Below, piece by piece: positions 19,786 to 25,806 of a stretch of 64,000 bases of DNA (position 1 is its first letter; each line of letters starts with the position of its first letter). Both the position numbers and the translations under genes were made by a program. The DNA comes from Desulfuromonas sp. CSMB_57. GTDB taxonomy: Bacteria; Desulfobacterota; Desulfuromonadia; Desulfuromonadales; Syntrophotaleaceae. The stretch covers positions 1 through 64,000 of the forward strand of contig NZ_JAFCIY020000030.1 in NCBI RefSeq assembly GCF_020194955.2, in the 5' to 3' direction. Below the pieces are notes generated by a model that did no database searches, was not told where the DNA came from, and worked only from the letters and a program-made list of their open reading frames with translations.

Positions 19786-21399
19786 ATGATCACTCCGGTA
19801 ATTCTCTCCGGCGGAACCGGTTCCCGGCTCTGGCCCTTGTCGCGGGAACTGTATCCGAAACAGCTGCTGCCCCTGGTGAGCGAAGCTACCATGCTGCAGG
19901 AAACCCAGCTGCGATTGAACGGCCTGGAAAATCTGCTGGCGCCCCTGGTGGTGTGCAACGAAAGCCACCGCTTCATGGTGGCCGAGCAGCTGCGCCAGGC
20001 CCAAGTCCCGGCCGGCGCCATCCTGCTGGAACCGGTGGGCCGCAACACCGCGCCGGCGGTGGCGGTGGCGGCGCTGCAGGCCCAAAAAACGGGGGACGAT
20101 CCGGTGCTGCTGGTGCTGCCGGCGGACCATGTGATTGTCGACGGCGAGACCTTCCGCAACGCCGTGCTGCACGGAGCGGAGTTCGCGCGGGCCGGGAAGC
20201 TGGTCACGTTTGGGATTGTGCCAACGAAACCTGAAACTGGGTATGGCTACATACGCGCGGATCGTGCGTGTCATTTGTTTGAAAACCGTCATTTGTCATT
20301 GGTCACTAGTCATTTGTCTGAAAACCGTCATTCGTCATTGGTCACTTGTCATTTGCCAAAAACCAAGGACCAAGGACCAATGACTAATGACTCGACGGCG
20401 CAAGCCGTCGTTACAAATGACCAAGGACCAATGACGAATGACGGTTTTACAACAAATGACCAAGGACCAATGACTAATGACGCCACTGCATTTCAAGTGG
20501 CCAAATTCGTTGAAAAACCGGATCTGCCTACTGCCGAGTCCTATCTCGCTTCCGGCGACTACTATTGGAACAGCGGCATGTTCATGTTCCGGGCTTCGCG
20601 GTATTTGGAGGAGTTGGCGACGTTCGCGCCGCAGATGTTGGCCTGCTGCCGGGAGGCTCTGGAGAAGGCGCAGCGGGATCTGGATTTCGTGCGGCTGGAT
20701 GCGGCGGCCTTTGCCGCCTGCCCGAAGGATTCCATCGACTACGCGGTGATGGAAAAGACCGCCGAGGCGGTGGTGATTCCCCTGGATGCGGGCTGGAGCG
20801 ATGTCGGGTCCTGGTCGGCCCTGTGGGAAGTGGGGACGACGGATTTGGACGGCAACGTGGTGCGCGGCGATGTGCTGACCCACGACAGCCGCAACTGCTA
20901 CCTGCATGCCACCGGGCGCATGGTGGCGGCGGTGGGGTTGGAGGATCATGTGGTGGTGGAGACCGCCGACGCGGTGCTGGTGGCGCGGCGCGACCGGGCC
21001 CAGGAGGTCAAGGCCATCGTCGACCGGCTCAAGGAGCAGGGGCGCGGCGAGGCCCTGCTGCACCGCAAGGTCAACCGCCCCTGGGGCGCCTATGAGTGTA
21101 TCGATGCGTCCGAGCGGTTCCAGGTCAAGCGCATCACCGTCAATCCCGGCGCCAGTTTGTCCCTGCAGATGCATCACCATCGCGCCGAGCACTGGATCGT
21201 GGTCAAGGGTACCGCCCGCATCACGCGCGGTGACGAGGTGCTGGTGCTGTCGGAAAACCAGTCCACCTACATTCCCCTCGGCGTACCGCACCGGCTGGAG
21301 AATCCCGGTCTGCTTCCGTTGGAACTCATCGAGGTGCAGTCGGGGTCGTATCTTGGGGAGGATGATATTGTGCGTTTTGAGGATCGCTACGGGCGTTAG
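19786..21399 (+). CDS. manC: Mannose-1-phosphate guanylyltransferase / mannose-6-phosphate isomerase with an in-frame repeat insertion
   Basis: It makes GDP-mannose for cell-surface polysaccharide. The 537-residue protein has the N-terminal nucleotidyltransferase (LSGGTGSRLWPLSRELYPKQ) and the C-terminal cupin isomerase domain (RPWGAYECID, LQMHHHRAEHWIVV). Relatives are about 465-480 residues. The excess is a stretch of about 71 residues (162-232), encoded by heptamer repeats at 20269-20481 and inserted between GYGYIRAD and VAKFVEKPD, a loop before a conserved block. The insert is a multiple of three and contains no stop, so the gene may still work. The stop falls at the natural end of the family (EDRYGR). 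It is followed by manB, interrupted by an element. Confidence 0.9.
   Translation: MITPVILSGGTGSRLWPLSRELYPKQLLPLVSEATMLQETQLRLNGLENLLAPLVVCNESHRFMVAEQLRQAQVPAGAILLEPVGRNTAPAVAVAALQAQKTGDDPVLLVLPADHVIVDGETFRNAVLHGAEFARAGKLVTFGIVPTKPETGYGYIRADRACHLFENRHLSLVTSHLSENRHSSLVTCHLPKTKDQGPMTNDSTAQAVVTNDQGPMTNDGFTTNDQGPMTNDATAFQVAKFVEKPDLPTAESYLASGDYYWNSGMFMFRASRYLEELATFAPQMLACCREALEKAQRDLDFVRLDAAAFAACPKDSIDYAVMEKTAEAVVIPLDAGWSDVGSWSALWEVGTTDLDGNVVRGDVLTHDSRNCYLHATGRMVAAVGLEDHVVVETADAVLVARRDRAQEVKAIVDRLKEQGRGEALLHRKVNRPWGAYECIDASERFQVKRITVNPGASLSLQMHHHRAEHWIVVKGTARITRGDEVLVLSENQSTYIPLGVPHRLENPGLLPLELIEVQSGSYLGEDDIVRFEDRYGR
20269..20481. repeat. Heptamer inverted-repeat insert (GTCATTN / NAATGAC) inside manC
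   Basis: About 213 bases made of GTCATTN-type heptamers in the left half (20269 to about 20355) and the complementary CCAATGAC/TAATGAC type in the right half (about 20362-20481), with a small CGACGGC-GCAA-GCCGTCG hairpin near the centre. The block GTCATTTGTCTGAAAACCGT (from 20309) has its inverted partner at 20436-20461. Both match the ends of the element at 21421-22004, so this looks like a shortened relative lacking the gene. Confidence 0.88.
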
Positions 21400-21420
21400 C
21401 CCGTAGCGATCCTCAAAACG
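21373..21420. repeat. Perfect 22-bp palindrome formed from the manC 3' end
   Basis: Bases 21373-21394 (the last codons of manC) and 21399-21420 are exact reverse complements around the loop GTTA, which includes the start of the stop codon. The second arm is non-coding and ends where the heptamer element begins. It could act as a transcription terminator hairpin without a T-tract. Confidence 0.8.
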
Positions 21421-22004
21421 GGTCATTTGTATAAAAACCGTCATTGGTCATTAGTCATTAGTCATTGGTTTTTGGGAGCCGATGGAGCGAAGGTAGGCGT
21501 TGAGTTTGGGCATGAGTTCCTGCAACAGAGGCTTGGTAGTGTGGATATTATCTTCGGAAAGCAGGCCACGGTTATAGGCGCGGCGCAACCAATGTCGGAC
21601 TTCGTAAAGGGAACCTCTGGCAATGCGTACGAATCTTCGGTTGTCCTGATAAGTTCCCCGGCCGCTGCCTTCAGCAATGTTGGCCCCTACACTGTCCACG
21701 GCACGAACCAGTTGCTTTCCAACAGTATCTCTGGCCAGACCATCCCATTCTGAAACAATCTGCCAGATCTCATCCGCCAATTTTTCCGATAGCTGATAAA
21801 CCCGTAGCCCCTCAAACCCTCGAATCGACACGATGCCCCCATGATGGATTTTAATTTTCCAAATCTAACACCCATCAAAACAAGATCCAAGCGCAAAGGA
21901 CACCCCGGCATTAATAAGAAGGGACCAAAATTCCTAAAATGGATAGGTGTAAACAACAAATGACAAAGGACAAGTGACCAATGACGGTTTCTATACAAAT
22001 GACC
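21421..22004. mobile_element. Candidate small mobile unit: four-helix-bundle gene between 30-bp inverted repeats
   Basis: Bases 21421-21450 and 21975-22004 are inverted repeats with 29 of 30 positions matching. Both consist of heptamers around a TAAAAACCG-like core and extend inward (left) and outward (right) as GTCATTN/NAATGAC arrays. Between them lies one gene on the minus strand encoding an S23-type four-helix-bundle protein and an AT-richer stretch (21832-21960). No transposase is present. A gene-less relative occurs in manC. Calling it mobile is inference from the structure and the second copy. Confidence 0.6.
21451..21831 (-). CDS. Four-helix-bundle protein, S23/23S-rRNA-intervening-sequence family
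   Basis: The 126-residue protein matches the family first found in intervening sequences of 23S rRNA genes (TIGR02436-type). Typical features are the start FEGLRVYQLSEKLADEIW, the block LVRAVDSVGANIAEGSGRG and the following helix RFVRIARGSLYEVRHWLRRA. The family is also related to the accessory protein Avd of diversity-generating retroelements; the molecular function of S23 proteins is not known. The start is GTG at 21831 with GGGGG upstream. The last residues (PMTND) and the TAA stop are encoded by the flanking heptamer repeat. Unlike the classic copies, it lies outside an rRNA gene, between manC and manB. Confidence 0.85.
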   Translation of the reverse strand: MSIRGFEGLRVYQLSEKLADEIWQIVSEWDGLARDTVGKQLVRAVDSVGANIAEGSGRGTYQDNRRFVRIARGSLYEVRHWLRRAYNRGLLSEDNIHTTKPLLQELMPKLNAYLRSIGSQKPMTND

Positions 22005-22019
22005 AATGACGAGTGACCA

Positions 22020-23372
22020 ATGACGATTTTACCTTGCTTTAAAGCCTACGACATTCGCGGCCGGTTGCCGGACGAGCTGAACGAGGACATCGCCTGGCGC
22101 ATCGGCCGGGCCTATGCCGCGTACCTGCGCCCGGAGCGGGTCGTGGTGGGACGCGATGTGCGGCTCAGCAGCGCGGCGTTGTGTGATGCTCTGTCGGCCG
22201 GGCTCATGGCGGGCGGGGCGGAGGTGTTCGATATCGGCCTGTGCGGTACGGAGGAGATCTATTTCGCCACCTTTGCCGCCGGGATGGACGGCGGCATCAT
22301 GGTGACGGCCAGCCACAATCCCATGGATTACAACGGCATGAAACTGGTGCGGCAGGGGGCGCGGCCCATCAGCGGCGACAGCGGTCTGCATGCCATCCGG
22401 GAGTTGGTGGCCCAAAACATTTTTGCTCCGGCGGCGAAATCTGGCTCCCGCTCGGTTATGGAGGTGCGGGCGGATTACGTGGCCCATCTGCTGGGGTACG
22501 TCGAGGTCGGGCAGCTGCGGCCTCTGAAGATCGTGGTCAACGCCGGCAACGGGTGCGCCGGCCCGGTGCTGGATGCGCTGGAGGAACGGCTGCCCTTCGA
22601 GTTCATCAAAATCCACCACCAGCCGGACGGCACTTTTCCCCACGGCATTCCCAATCCCCTGCTGCCGGAGAACCGCGCGGCCACGGCCGAGGCGGTGCTG
22701 GCCCACGGCGCGGATCTGGGCATCGCCTGGGACGGCGATTTCGATCGCTGTTTCCTCTTTGACGAGCAGGGTGCCTTCATCGAAGGCTATTACGTGGTGG
22801 GTCTGCTGGCGGCGGCGTTTCTGCAACACCATCCCGGCGCCCGCATCATCCACGATCCGCGCCTGACCTGGAACACGGTGGACCTGGTCCGGGGCCTGGG
22901 CGGCACGCCGGTCATGAGCAAGACCGGCCATGCCTTCATCAAGGAGCGCATGCGGGCCGAGGACGCGGTGTACGGCGGCGAGATGAGCGCCCACCATTAT
23001 TTTCGCGATTTCGCCTACTGCGACAGCGGCATGATCCCCTGGCTGCTGGTGACGGAGCTGATGAGCCGCCGCGGCCAGCCCCTGTCCCGGCTGGTCGGCG
23101 AGCGCATCGCCCGCTACCCGGCCAGCGGCGAAATCAATCGCCGCCTGAGGGATCCGGCGGCCACCCTGGCCCGCATCGAGGCCCATTACCTCGGCGCGGC
23201 CCGGGGTGCGGATTTTACCGACGGCCTGAGCATGGAATTCGACCGCTGGCGCTTCAACCTGCGCAGTTCCAACACCGAACCGGTGGTGCGGCTGAATGTG
23301 GAGAGTCGCGGCGACCAGGCCTTGATGGAGGACAAGACGCGGGAGATTCTGGGGCTGATGGCGGGGGACTGA
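22020..23372 (+). CDS. manB: Phosphomannomutase/phosphohexomutase
   Basis: It interconverts mannose 6-phosphate and mannose 1-phosphate, supplying ManC. The 450-residue protein has the phosphoserine loop S98 in [13 protein letters not shown], the metal-binding [11 protein letters not shown] near residue 240, the sugar-binding [12 protein letters not shown] and the phosphate-binding [14 protein letters not shown] at the end. The ATG at 22020 lies inside a CCAATGAC heptamer of the neighbouring repeat, and the family-typical [14 protein letters not shown] follows. The ribosome binding site is weak, so the repeat may have replaced the original leader. Confidence 0.93.
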
Positions 23373-25260: not shown

Positions 25261-25806
25261 ATGAACAGGTTCGTCGCTGCAATCCTATTCGTCATGGCGG
25301 TTTTCCTGCATGGTCCGTCGGTAAGCGGGACGGCAGGGCATGAATCGGGGGCGGGCCGGACCGCACCCCTGGTCGATTGCTCGAACTGCAGTCTTGATCT
25401 TATGAATCCCGGGCGTTGGAAGGAACGACTCGTCGCCCCGTCCAAGCCGGTTGCCGCGCCCATTTGGTGCGCCGCCTGCGGCCTGGAGTTCCCCTCCGCC
25501 GACGCCTTGCAGCAGCATCTGCGGGAGCATCCGGAACACCGGACCGCGCCCTTGGTGGATTGCATGAACTGCAGTCTGGATTTGATCAATCCGGGGCGTT
25601 GGAAGGAACAGCTCACCAGTCCGGCCCAACCGGTGGCCGCGCCGATTCGATGCACGGCCTGCGGATTGGAATTTTCATCCGGCGAAGGGTTGCAGCAACA
25701 TTTGCGGGAACATCCGGAACATCGGACCGCTCCTCTTATCGATTGTTCGAACTGTGGGCTGGACTACACCCGACCGGATCGCTGGAAAGAGAAACTCCGG
25801 AAATAG
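25261..25806 (+). CDS. Exported protein with two C2H2 zinc-finger-like motifs in a tandem repeat
   Basis: The 181-residue protein has a signal peptide (residues 1 to about 23) followed by 2.3 copies of a 61-residue module. Each module has a DCxNCxLD knuckle (C40/C43, C101/C104, C162/C165), a GRWKE segment, then a finger with exact classical C2H2 spacing, C-x2-C-x12-H-x3-H: C70, C73, H86, H90 and C131, C134, H147, H151. The linker PEHRTAP joins the copies. The repeats are also alike at the DNA level, so the duplication is fairly recent. Export would place the fingers in the periplasm, so metal binding or protein contact is likelier than DNA binding. Function unknown. GGAG precedes the ATG. Confidence 0.78.
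   Translation: MNRFVAAILFVMAVFLHGPSVSGTAGHESGAGRTAPLVDCSNCSLDLMNPGRWKERLVAPSKPVAAPIWCAACGLEFPSADALQQHLREHPEHRTAPLVDCMNCSLDLINPGRWKEQLTSPAQPVAAPIRCTACGLEFSSGEGLQQHLREHPEHRTAPLIDCSNCGLDYTRPDRWKEKLRK

Follow-up and report, generated by a model that had tools for sequence, protein, structure and literature searches.

Dispersed arrays of heptamers have so far been reported piecemeal, as possible regulators or as G-quadruplexes; the GGGGA(C/T)T heptamers of Nostoc form dispersed arrays of about 7 bp units. In Xanthomonas, 186 and 183 GGGAATC arrays were counted in two genomes, with 70 and 75 convergent pairs, and the arrays lie nearer to the 5' neighbouring ORF, at 28 nt on average (PMC4692102). 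Regulatory roles have been proposed for the TAACTGA heptamers of Beggiatoaceae, and a protein binding TAACTGA has been suggested as the possible mobile element (PMC4679880). In the parts of these two papers covered here, the arrays are not linked to any S23 gene, and the terms S23 and four helix are absent from the second. In Coxiella, the intervening sequence (IVS) of 23S rRNA has a terminal stem of 28 bp, and S23p is preceded by tandem GACAGAT heptamers; the authors, referring to earlier work, mention a role of the IVS ORF in mobility (PMC4990558). In the REPIN/RAYT system, a single-copy, distinctive protein gene is located beside its own repeat type, and its nearest protein relatives are found in other genomes (PMC3116915). 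Homology between PF05635, the S23 family, and Avd of diversity-generating retroelements (DGR) has also been noted (PMC10053308). Among the open-licence PMC papers listed by our searches, we found none tying S23 genes to heptamer arrays.

The window (the whole stretch of 64,000 nucleotides of Desulfuromonas sp. CSMB_57 DNA analysed here) exhibits an S23 element between manC and manB, outside the 23S rRNA gene. The upstream gene manC (19786-21399, + strand) encodes mannose-1-P guanylyltransferase/mannose-6-P isomerase, and the right neighbour is a manB-type phosphomannomutase gene (22020-23372, + strand). The left arm of the element (21421-21473, + strand) consists of inward GTCATTN heptamers and an AAAACC block; the right arm (21952-22004, - strand) is its reverse complement. 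The two arms, 53 nt each and 87% complementary (E-value = 4 × 10-11 for left versus right arm when the unit was compared by BLAST with its own genome), enclose one S23/PF05635 gene of 126 aa (S23/IVP four-helix-bundle type; 21451-21831, - strand), the 3' end of which overlaps the left arm. Sequences matching GTCATTNGTCATT with at most two mismatches occur 27 times in the window, 26 of them within 20288-22024, against 2.7 expected from shuffling. The first-pass annotation had described 30-nt inverted ends with 29 of 30 positions matching, and this count is correct for the outer 30 nt. These repeats are real, but they are not fixed ends: they are arrays, and extra inward heptamers past the right arm (22005-22030, - strand) carry them to about 22030. 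Heptamers contain the codons for the final S23 residues (PMTND) as well as the listed start codon of manB (22020). As also proposed in that annotation, the enclosed stretch is richer in A+T (G+C content 0.52 for the S23 domain versus 0.61 for the locus), and the unit shows no sign of a transposase: two further frames over it (103 and 108 aa) have no Pfam match, S23 being the sole Pfam-matching frame between the arms. The gene-less relative reported within manC is likewise present (about 20267-20489). It is itself an inverted pair of GTCATTN heptamer arrays, with 69-nt arms that are 86% complementary, and the 537-aa manC frame runs uninterrupted across it. Three 23S motifs were absent from the S23 loci examined for them.

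A distinct feature covers the manC stop codon and abuts the S23 element: a 22-bp perfect stem with a 4-nt loop (21373-21420). Near-perfect stems of 20-22 bp are found at this place here and in two relatives, G009 (L143, about 2940-2985) and G001 (L141, - strand, about 2650-2700). Their sequence varies among the three genomes and the pairing is nearly retained; the stem is absent at loci carrying the GTGATTN element described below. It can be read either as the product of fold-back copying or as a retained terminator.

The assignment of the enclosed gene to the S23/IVS type is borne out by matches to PF05635 (97 bits, cut-off 33.8) and TIGR02436 (94 bits, cut-off 24). The AF2 model of the protein (pLDDT 92) has its best structure matches in 2gsc and 2rld, followed by Avd/DGR complexes, and predicts a four-helix bundle as in 2GSC and 2RLD. 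The pI of the window protein is 9.6. The median for S23 proteins is 8.9, with 92 of 143 above 8.5 and 27 of 143 below 7; Avd is basic. We know of no enzymatic activity of S23, and we found no function for it in print, the structures 2GSC and 2RLD having been solved.

The repeat arrays around S23 genes are made of degenerate units, usually of 7 bp, that read inward from both ends, and they occur in very many bacteria. The genes surveyed were selected by protein family and taxon, never by repeats. They come from 58 relatives, where all above-cut-off matches were taken except one at 34 bits (G001:C1:813310), and from a scan of public genomes that contributed 80 named loci, the best 80 of 566. In a set of 14 control genomes, PF05635 had no match. 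With duplicate loci (L149, L226) and loci having flanks <150 bp dropped before counting, the main set comprises 147 distinct S23 genes, 140 of them with usable flanks. As S23 frames extend into the arms, flanks were measured from the ends of the domain. An inverted pair (score ≥12) was found at 120 of the 140 genes, versus 6 of 258 displaced controls from the same loci. When flanks were swapped between genes, 163 of 2800 pairs reached this score, and 92 of the 140 genes scored above all 20 of their own swaps. The same test from ORF ends, which was used first, gave 102 of 136 genes against 4 of 136 displaced controls. A lag-7 periodicity was detected in 175 of 280 flanks within 200 bp, versus 4 of 269 at 400-600 bp and 24 of 268 at 700-900 bp, the last of which we take to be neighbouring arrays. 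With the Xanthomonadales and plasmid loci added and repeats (L232, L268, L269) left out, inverted arrays are present at 173 of 198 S23 genes (126 of 148 clusters at 75% identity), the other 25 genes being below the inverted-pair threshold. By subset, 58 of 73 named public loci (from the best 80 of 566) and 12 of 12 plasmid loci (fetched from 30 plasmid records with a match) exhibit the pair. The steady pairing of S23 genes with repeats that the first-pass annotation anticipated is thus a property of the class. It is seen for GTCATTN itself, arrays of which flank the S23 gene left and right in G001, G009, G023 and G026. In the home genome of the window, a second S23 gene (C34) has an inverted-pair score of 14.0, and a third lies at a contig end. 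As for phages as carriers, a search of 50,697 phage records with the S23 protein of L008 yielded nothing.

2GSC, one of the solved S23 structures, is that of a Xanthomonas protein. The expectation of GGGAATC-type arms at its relatives held, GGGATTC/GGGAATC arms being found there; this expectation was not blind, one Xanthomonadales locus (L225) having earlier shown GGGATTC arms. Of 50 Xanthomonadales loci (30 from the search and 20 hand-picked, partly for a Xanthomonas-like size of genome; three of the 50 repeat other loci), 49 have flanks and 44 exhibit the inverted pair. Among 250 Xanthomonadales genomes, at least 100 GGGAWTC hits are found in 18 of 91 genomes with S23 versus 0 of 159 without it, and at least 10 hits in 31 of 91 versus 8 of 159, both comparisons being uncorrected for phylogeny. 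The S23 site is largely common to these genomes. One S23 (L030) exhibits TAACTGA-type arms. Known orphan repeats agree with the S23 pattern in these cases; the heptamers of Xanthomonas, Beggiatoaceae and Nostoc are, like S23 elements, dispersed arrays of about 7-bp units.

Related S23s keep a like unit, and S23s within one genome differ. The 30-bp ends seen in the window are accordingly one lineage's version and not a general hallmark, the unit differing among S23 lineages. Between genomes, array similarity rises with S23 identity (Mantel r = 0.284, a value reached in none of 2000 permutations; 142 of the 147 genes had usable arrays, with L176 and L193, from one MAG, treated as different genomes), and the rise is mostly above 65% identity. 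When one array is read outward, r drops to 0.033, so the orientation is fixed. For 51 genes, the mean array cosine is 0.41 with the nearest S23 elsewhere versus 0.06 with genome-mates (P = 3 × 10-9). Much of this tracking probably reflects co-inheritance of gene and arms, and the shared units of close S23s could simply be due to it; the correlation reveals the unit of inheritance, not binding.

Gene-less hairpins are dispersed in genomes with a matching S23, as examined for GTCATTN and, by counts, for GGGAWTC. G023 exhibits 63 GTCATTN hits in 25 clusters; 17 clusters are two-stranded, all 17 are convergent, and one of these holds the S23 gene. Nineteen of 20 places fetched from this genome are two-armed, with folds of -17.8 to -51.5 kcal/mol, and the remaining one is a single arm. 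The two-armed gene-less copies are 59-140 bp long and four gene-less copies overlap an open frame of at least 100 aa. Their loops are unlike each other, which sets them apart from ordinary copies of one element. An outer AAA..C tendency is visible in 39 GTCATTN ends (A at three positions: 27, 29 and 23 of 39). The five genomes with a matching S23 and arrays contain 24-115 GTCATTN hits each, versus at most 35 in any of the other 53 (P = 10-5). G004 has 19 such hits and no S23 match; with the eight S23-less Xanthomonadales genomes noted above, it indicates that arrays can exist without S23. Between G026 and G042, which belong to the same genus, slots of gene-less copies hold other arrays or decayed copies, and one slot has a CAACTGA array in the place of GTCATTN.

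The manC-manB junction, a much-used slot in genomes of the same family, allows the window element to be followed in relatives. A GTCATTN element with closely related S23s occupies this slot in the window, in G009 and in one G001 copy, and a GTCATTN element is also found there in the other-family genomes G023 and G026. In G007 and the other G001 copy, the slot holds a GTGATTN element with a different S23 and with leftover GTCATTN units at its edge. Being common to G001, G009, G023 and G026, S23 at manC-manB is an old resident and not a recent arrival. The S23 gene segment is flipped in the window relative to these four genomes, as arm-arm recombination would produce. G020 is the one candidate for the gene at the same site without the repeats: no GTCATTN array accompanies its related S23 (74-75%), and of the two flanks one is homologous to the manC-manB site and the other is cut short. 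The empty sites that the first-pass annotation called for were found in part. Related elements are missing from one and the same junction in relatives, but no clean empty site for the window's own S23 copy was found among the relatives examined; these carry the same element, have a different unit there (G007, one G001 copy) or can be compared on a single flank.

A second slot lies within manC itself. Residues from about 165 to 222 or 232 of the manC query are unmatched in G002, G005, G007, G008, G009 and G011, and one G001 copy matches to residue 208. Near codon 160, GTCATTN hairpins are present in the window and in one G001 copy, and other units in G007, G009 and G005; G002 and the third G001 copy have no obvious array, and G008 has a remnant at most (G011 was left out of this comparison). 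In one manC copy of G001, an insert of about 1.1 kb (L141, 4890-5980) interrupts the heptamer arrays; a frame in it reads, by eye, like a transposase or integrase.

The same host slots are, in relatives, filled, S23-empty or holding another unit. Of the 123 S23 pairs whose proteins are at least 75% identical, 77 share a site, 4 share it in flipped orientation and 25 stand at different sites (not independent, 8 being within one group of five loci); 10 have one flank alike and 7 are too short. Inside type I-D CRISPR operons on plasmids (L345, L350), S23 elements stand between cas6 and cas4. In two of seven cyanobacterial plasmid operons, an S23 element lies directly after the cas6 stop codon and before cas4, with GTGACAG-type units in Anabaena sp. 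90 and TTAGCTT-type units in Pseudanabaena galeata. Five related operons have no S23 between cas6 and cas4, so that S23-filled and S23-less versions of one site are on record. One of these junctions, in Dolichospermum, has flanks 98.0 and 99.5% identical to those of Anabaena sp. 90 and holds a different, MITE-like insert; it is thus not a clean empty site. Two elements with different units at one cas6-cas4 junction provide the best evidence for gain.

Finer comparisons reveal replacement and length change. In 400 kb of the sister genomes G233 and G301, there was no clean gain or loss of a hairpin. Array lengths are not the same, with gaps of 29, 42 and 14 bases; one hairpin has been replaced in full, its flanks being conserved, and the place of another is taken in the sister genome by about 0.9 kb of different sequence. 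A further hairpin-like family (CGTAGGAGCGC... type) also varies between these genomes (L282-L321). In G028, S23 elements with TCGAAATCG units occupy three sites (L094, L099, L101); since integrase-like fragments (frames by eye) lie downstream of all three and two share one flank, part of this may be segmental duplication. No movement was seen, and no target duplication, another mark sought for the proposed mobile unit, was established in any comparison. The idea of a mobile unit is partly upheld, by the pairing, the gene-less derivatives and the filled and unfilled sites; the old residence of the gene at manC-manB and the 77 of 123 close pairs that share a site speak against a freely jumping one.

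The S23 element corresponds in full to no known family considered: it works most like REPIN/RAYT and looks most like an rRNA IVS. It shares with the 23S rRNA IVS an S23 ORF between complementary ends. The IVS lies inside 23S rRNA and is excised from it, whereas the window element is found between or in protein genes, with dispersed gene-less hairpins and a unit varying with the protein. Like REPIN/RAYT, it exhibits inverted short-repeat pairs as dispersed hairpins together with a resident protein gene, as seen in G023. However, RAYT is an IS200-like tyrosine transposase, while S23 is a four-helix protein whose arms are tandem arrays of about 7 bp, in a unit lacking any transposase match. Avd resembles S23 in its fold and its mostly basic pI, but DGRs have a reverse transcriptase with a TR/VR pair, and the S23 unit has no reverse transcriptase. 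MITEs are also small, with inverted ends and gene-less copies; for S23 elements neither a parent transposase nor fixed ends were found, the loops differ, and the ends have only the outer AAA..C tendency.

We consider it probable, on balance, that S23 elements are a bacteria-wide class, an S23 gene between inverted arrays, in which the Avd-like S23 promotes hairpin copying or replacement. The basic protein would recognise its own unit in the hairpin arms, as DNA or as RNA; since many S23 genomes yielded no reverse transcriptase, DNA seems to us the likelier form. The protein would then promote hairpin copying or replacement at slots, several of which lie directly behind stop codons, and the chemistry would be left to replication or repair enzymes of the host. 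The S23 gene itself would mostly stay put, as RAYTs do, the gene-less hairpins forming the population, and the arms may also recombine, as with the inverted gene segment of the window. In such a scheme S23 may either move the repeats or maintain them. The broader proposition seems to us evenly poised: these would be selfish or half-domesticated repeats, free of transposase and reverse transcriptase, in which an Avd-like protein, probably a pentamer, reads a protein-specific heptamer address in the hairpin arms and sustains a population of gene-less hairpins, uniting the orphan heptamers of cyanobacteria, Xanthomonas and Beggiatoaceae with the S23-bearing rRNA IVSs.

S23 might instead be a resident RNA- or DNA-binding host regulator, the arrays being its sites in 3'-UTR hairpins, an autoregulatory pair included, and spreading by slippage, recombination and selection. 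The residence of the gene at the same site in most close pairs fits this explanation, as do the elements close behind the manC and cas6 stop codons, the position of the Xanthomonas arrays 28 nt on average from the nearer, 5' ORF (PMC4692102) and the regulatory roles proposed for TAACTGA repeats (PMC4679880). Yet a gene-less hairpin also lies within manC, unrelated units occupy the same slot in relatives, S23 lineages with different units coexist in one genome, and 25 of the 123 close pairs are at different sites; we regard a regulator as unlikely. More doubtful still is a scheme in which hairpin mobility is due to another enzyme (e.g. Y1/RAYT, or a trans-acting IS transposase) and S23 is cargo or a protector of the arms. 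The hairpins do resemble REPINs, which are tied to RAYTs (PMC3116915), and both the insert with a transposase-like frame and a MITE-like insert, read by eye, share slots with the arrays. The unit is nevertheless without a transposase match, and the heptamer type varies with the S23 protein, a link not expected if a foreign enzyme were at work.

That S23, like Avd, works with a reverse transcriptase on hairpin RNA is suggested by a fold like that of Avd and of DGR ribonucleoprotein chains, and by the rRNA IVSs, which are S23 genes between complementary ends (PMC4990558). RVT_1 exhibits no association with S23, however (18 of 34 relatives with S23 versus 9 of 24 without, P = 0.29). It is unmatched in 16 of the 34 relatives with S23, some of them incomplete genomes, and G023, a 100% complete genome in which eight S23 matches exceed the cut-off (two fragments on C7 included) and which has 25 GTCATTN clusters, has no RVT_1 match; a reverse transcriptase thus seems not to be required. 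The window's own genome has RVT_1 matches on C56 and C57 and none on the window's contig, C93. Retro-copying accordingly appears very improbable to us. Chance, or simple slippage repeats beside a small gene, would agree with the array lengths that vary between sister genomes, but is already contradicted by the displaced and swapped controls, by the inward orientation in 17 of 17 clusters and by the unit following the protein; its probability is negligible.

If S23 proteins and orphan heptamer arrays are two halves of one system, as in the preferred reading, one protein and one synthetic array would be enough to put both puzzles to the test. This would be a repeat-spreading system whose protein is no known transposase, integrase or reverse transcriptase, and a likely source of rRNA intervening sequences. 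S23-linked arrays may explain heptamer repeats that have been puzzling for decades.

Two minor observations concern the same genome. Two of its contigs end in long GTCACTG arrays (L064, 1-180; L065, 3280-3351), so the assembly probably breaks at such repeats. Downstream of manB in the window, a 181-aa frame (25261-25806) exhibits C2H2 zinc-finger-like matches, with three repeats discernible by eye; C2H2 zinc-finger-like proteins are unusual in bacteria.
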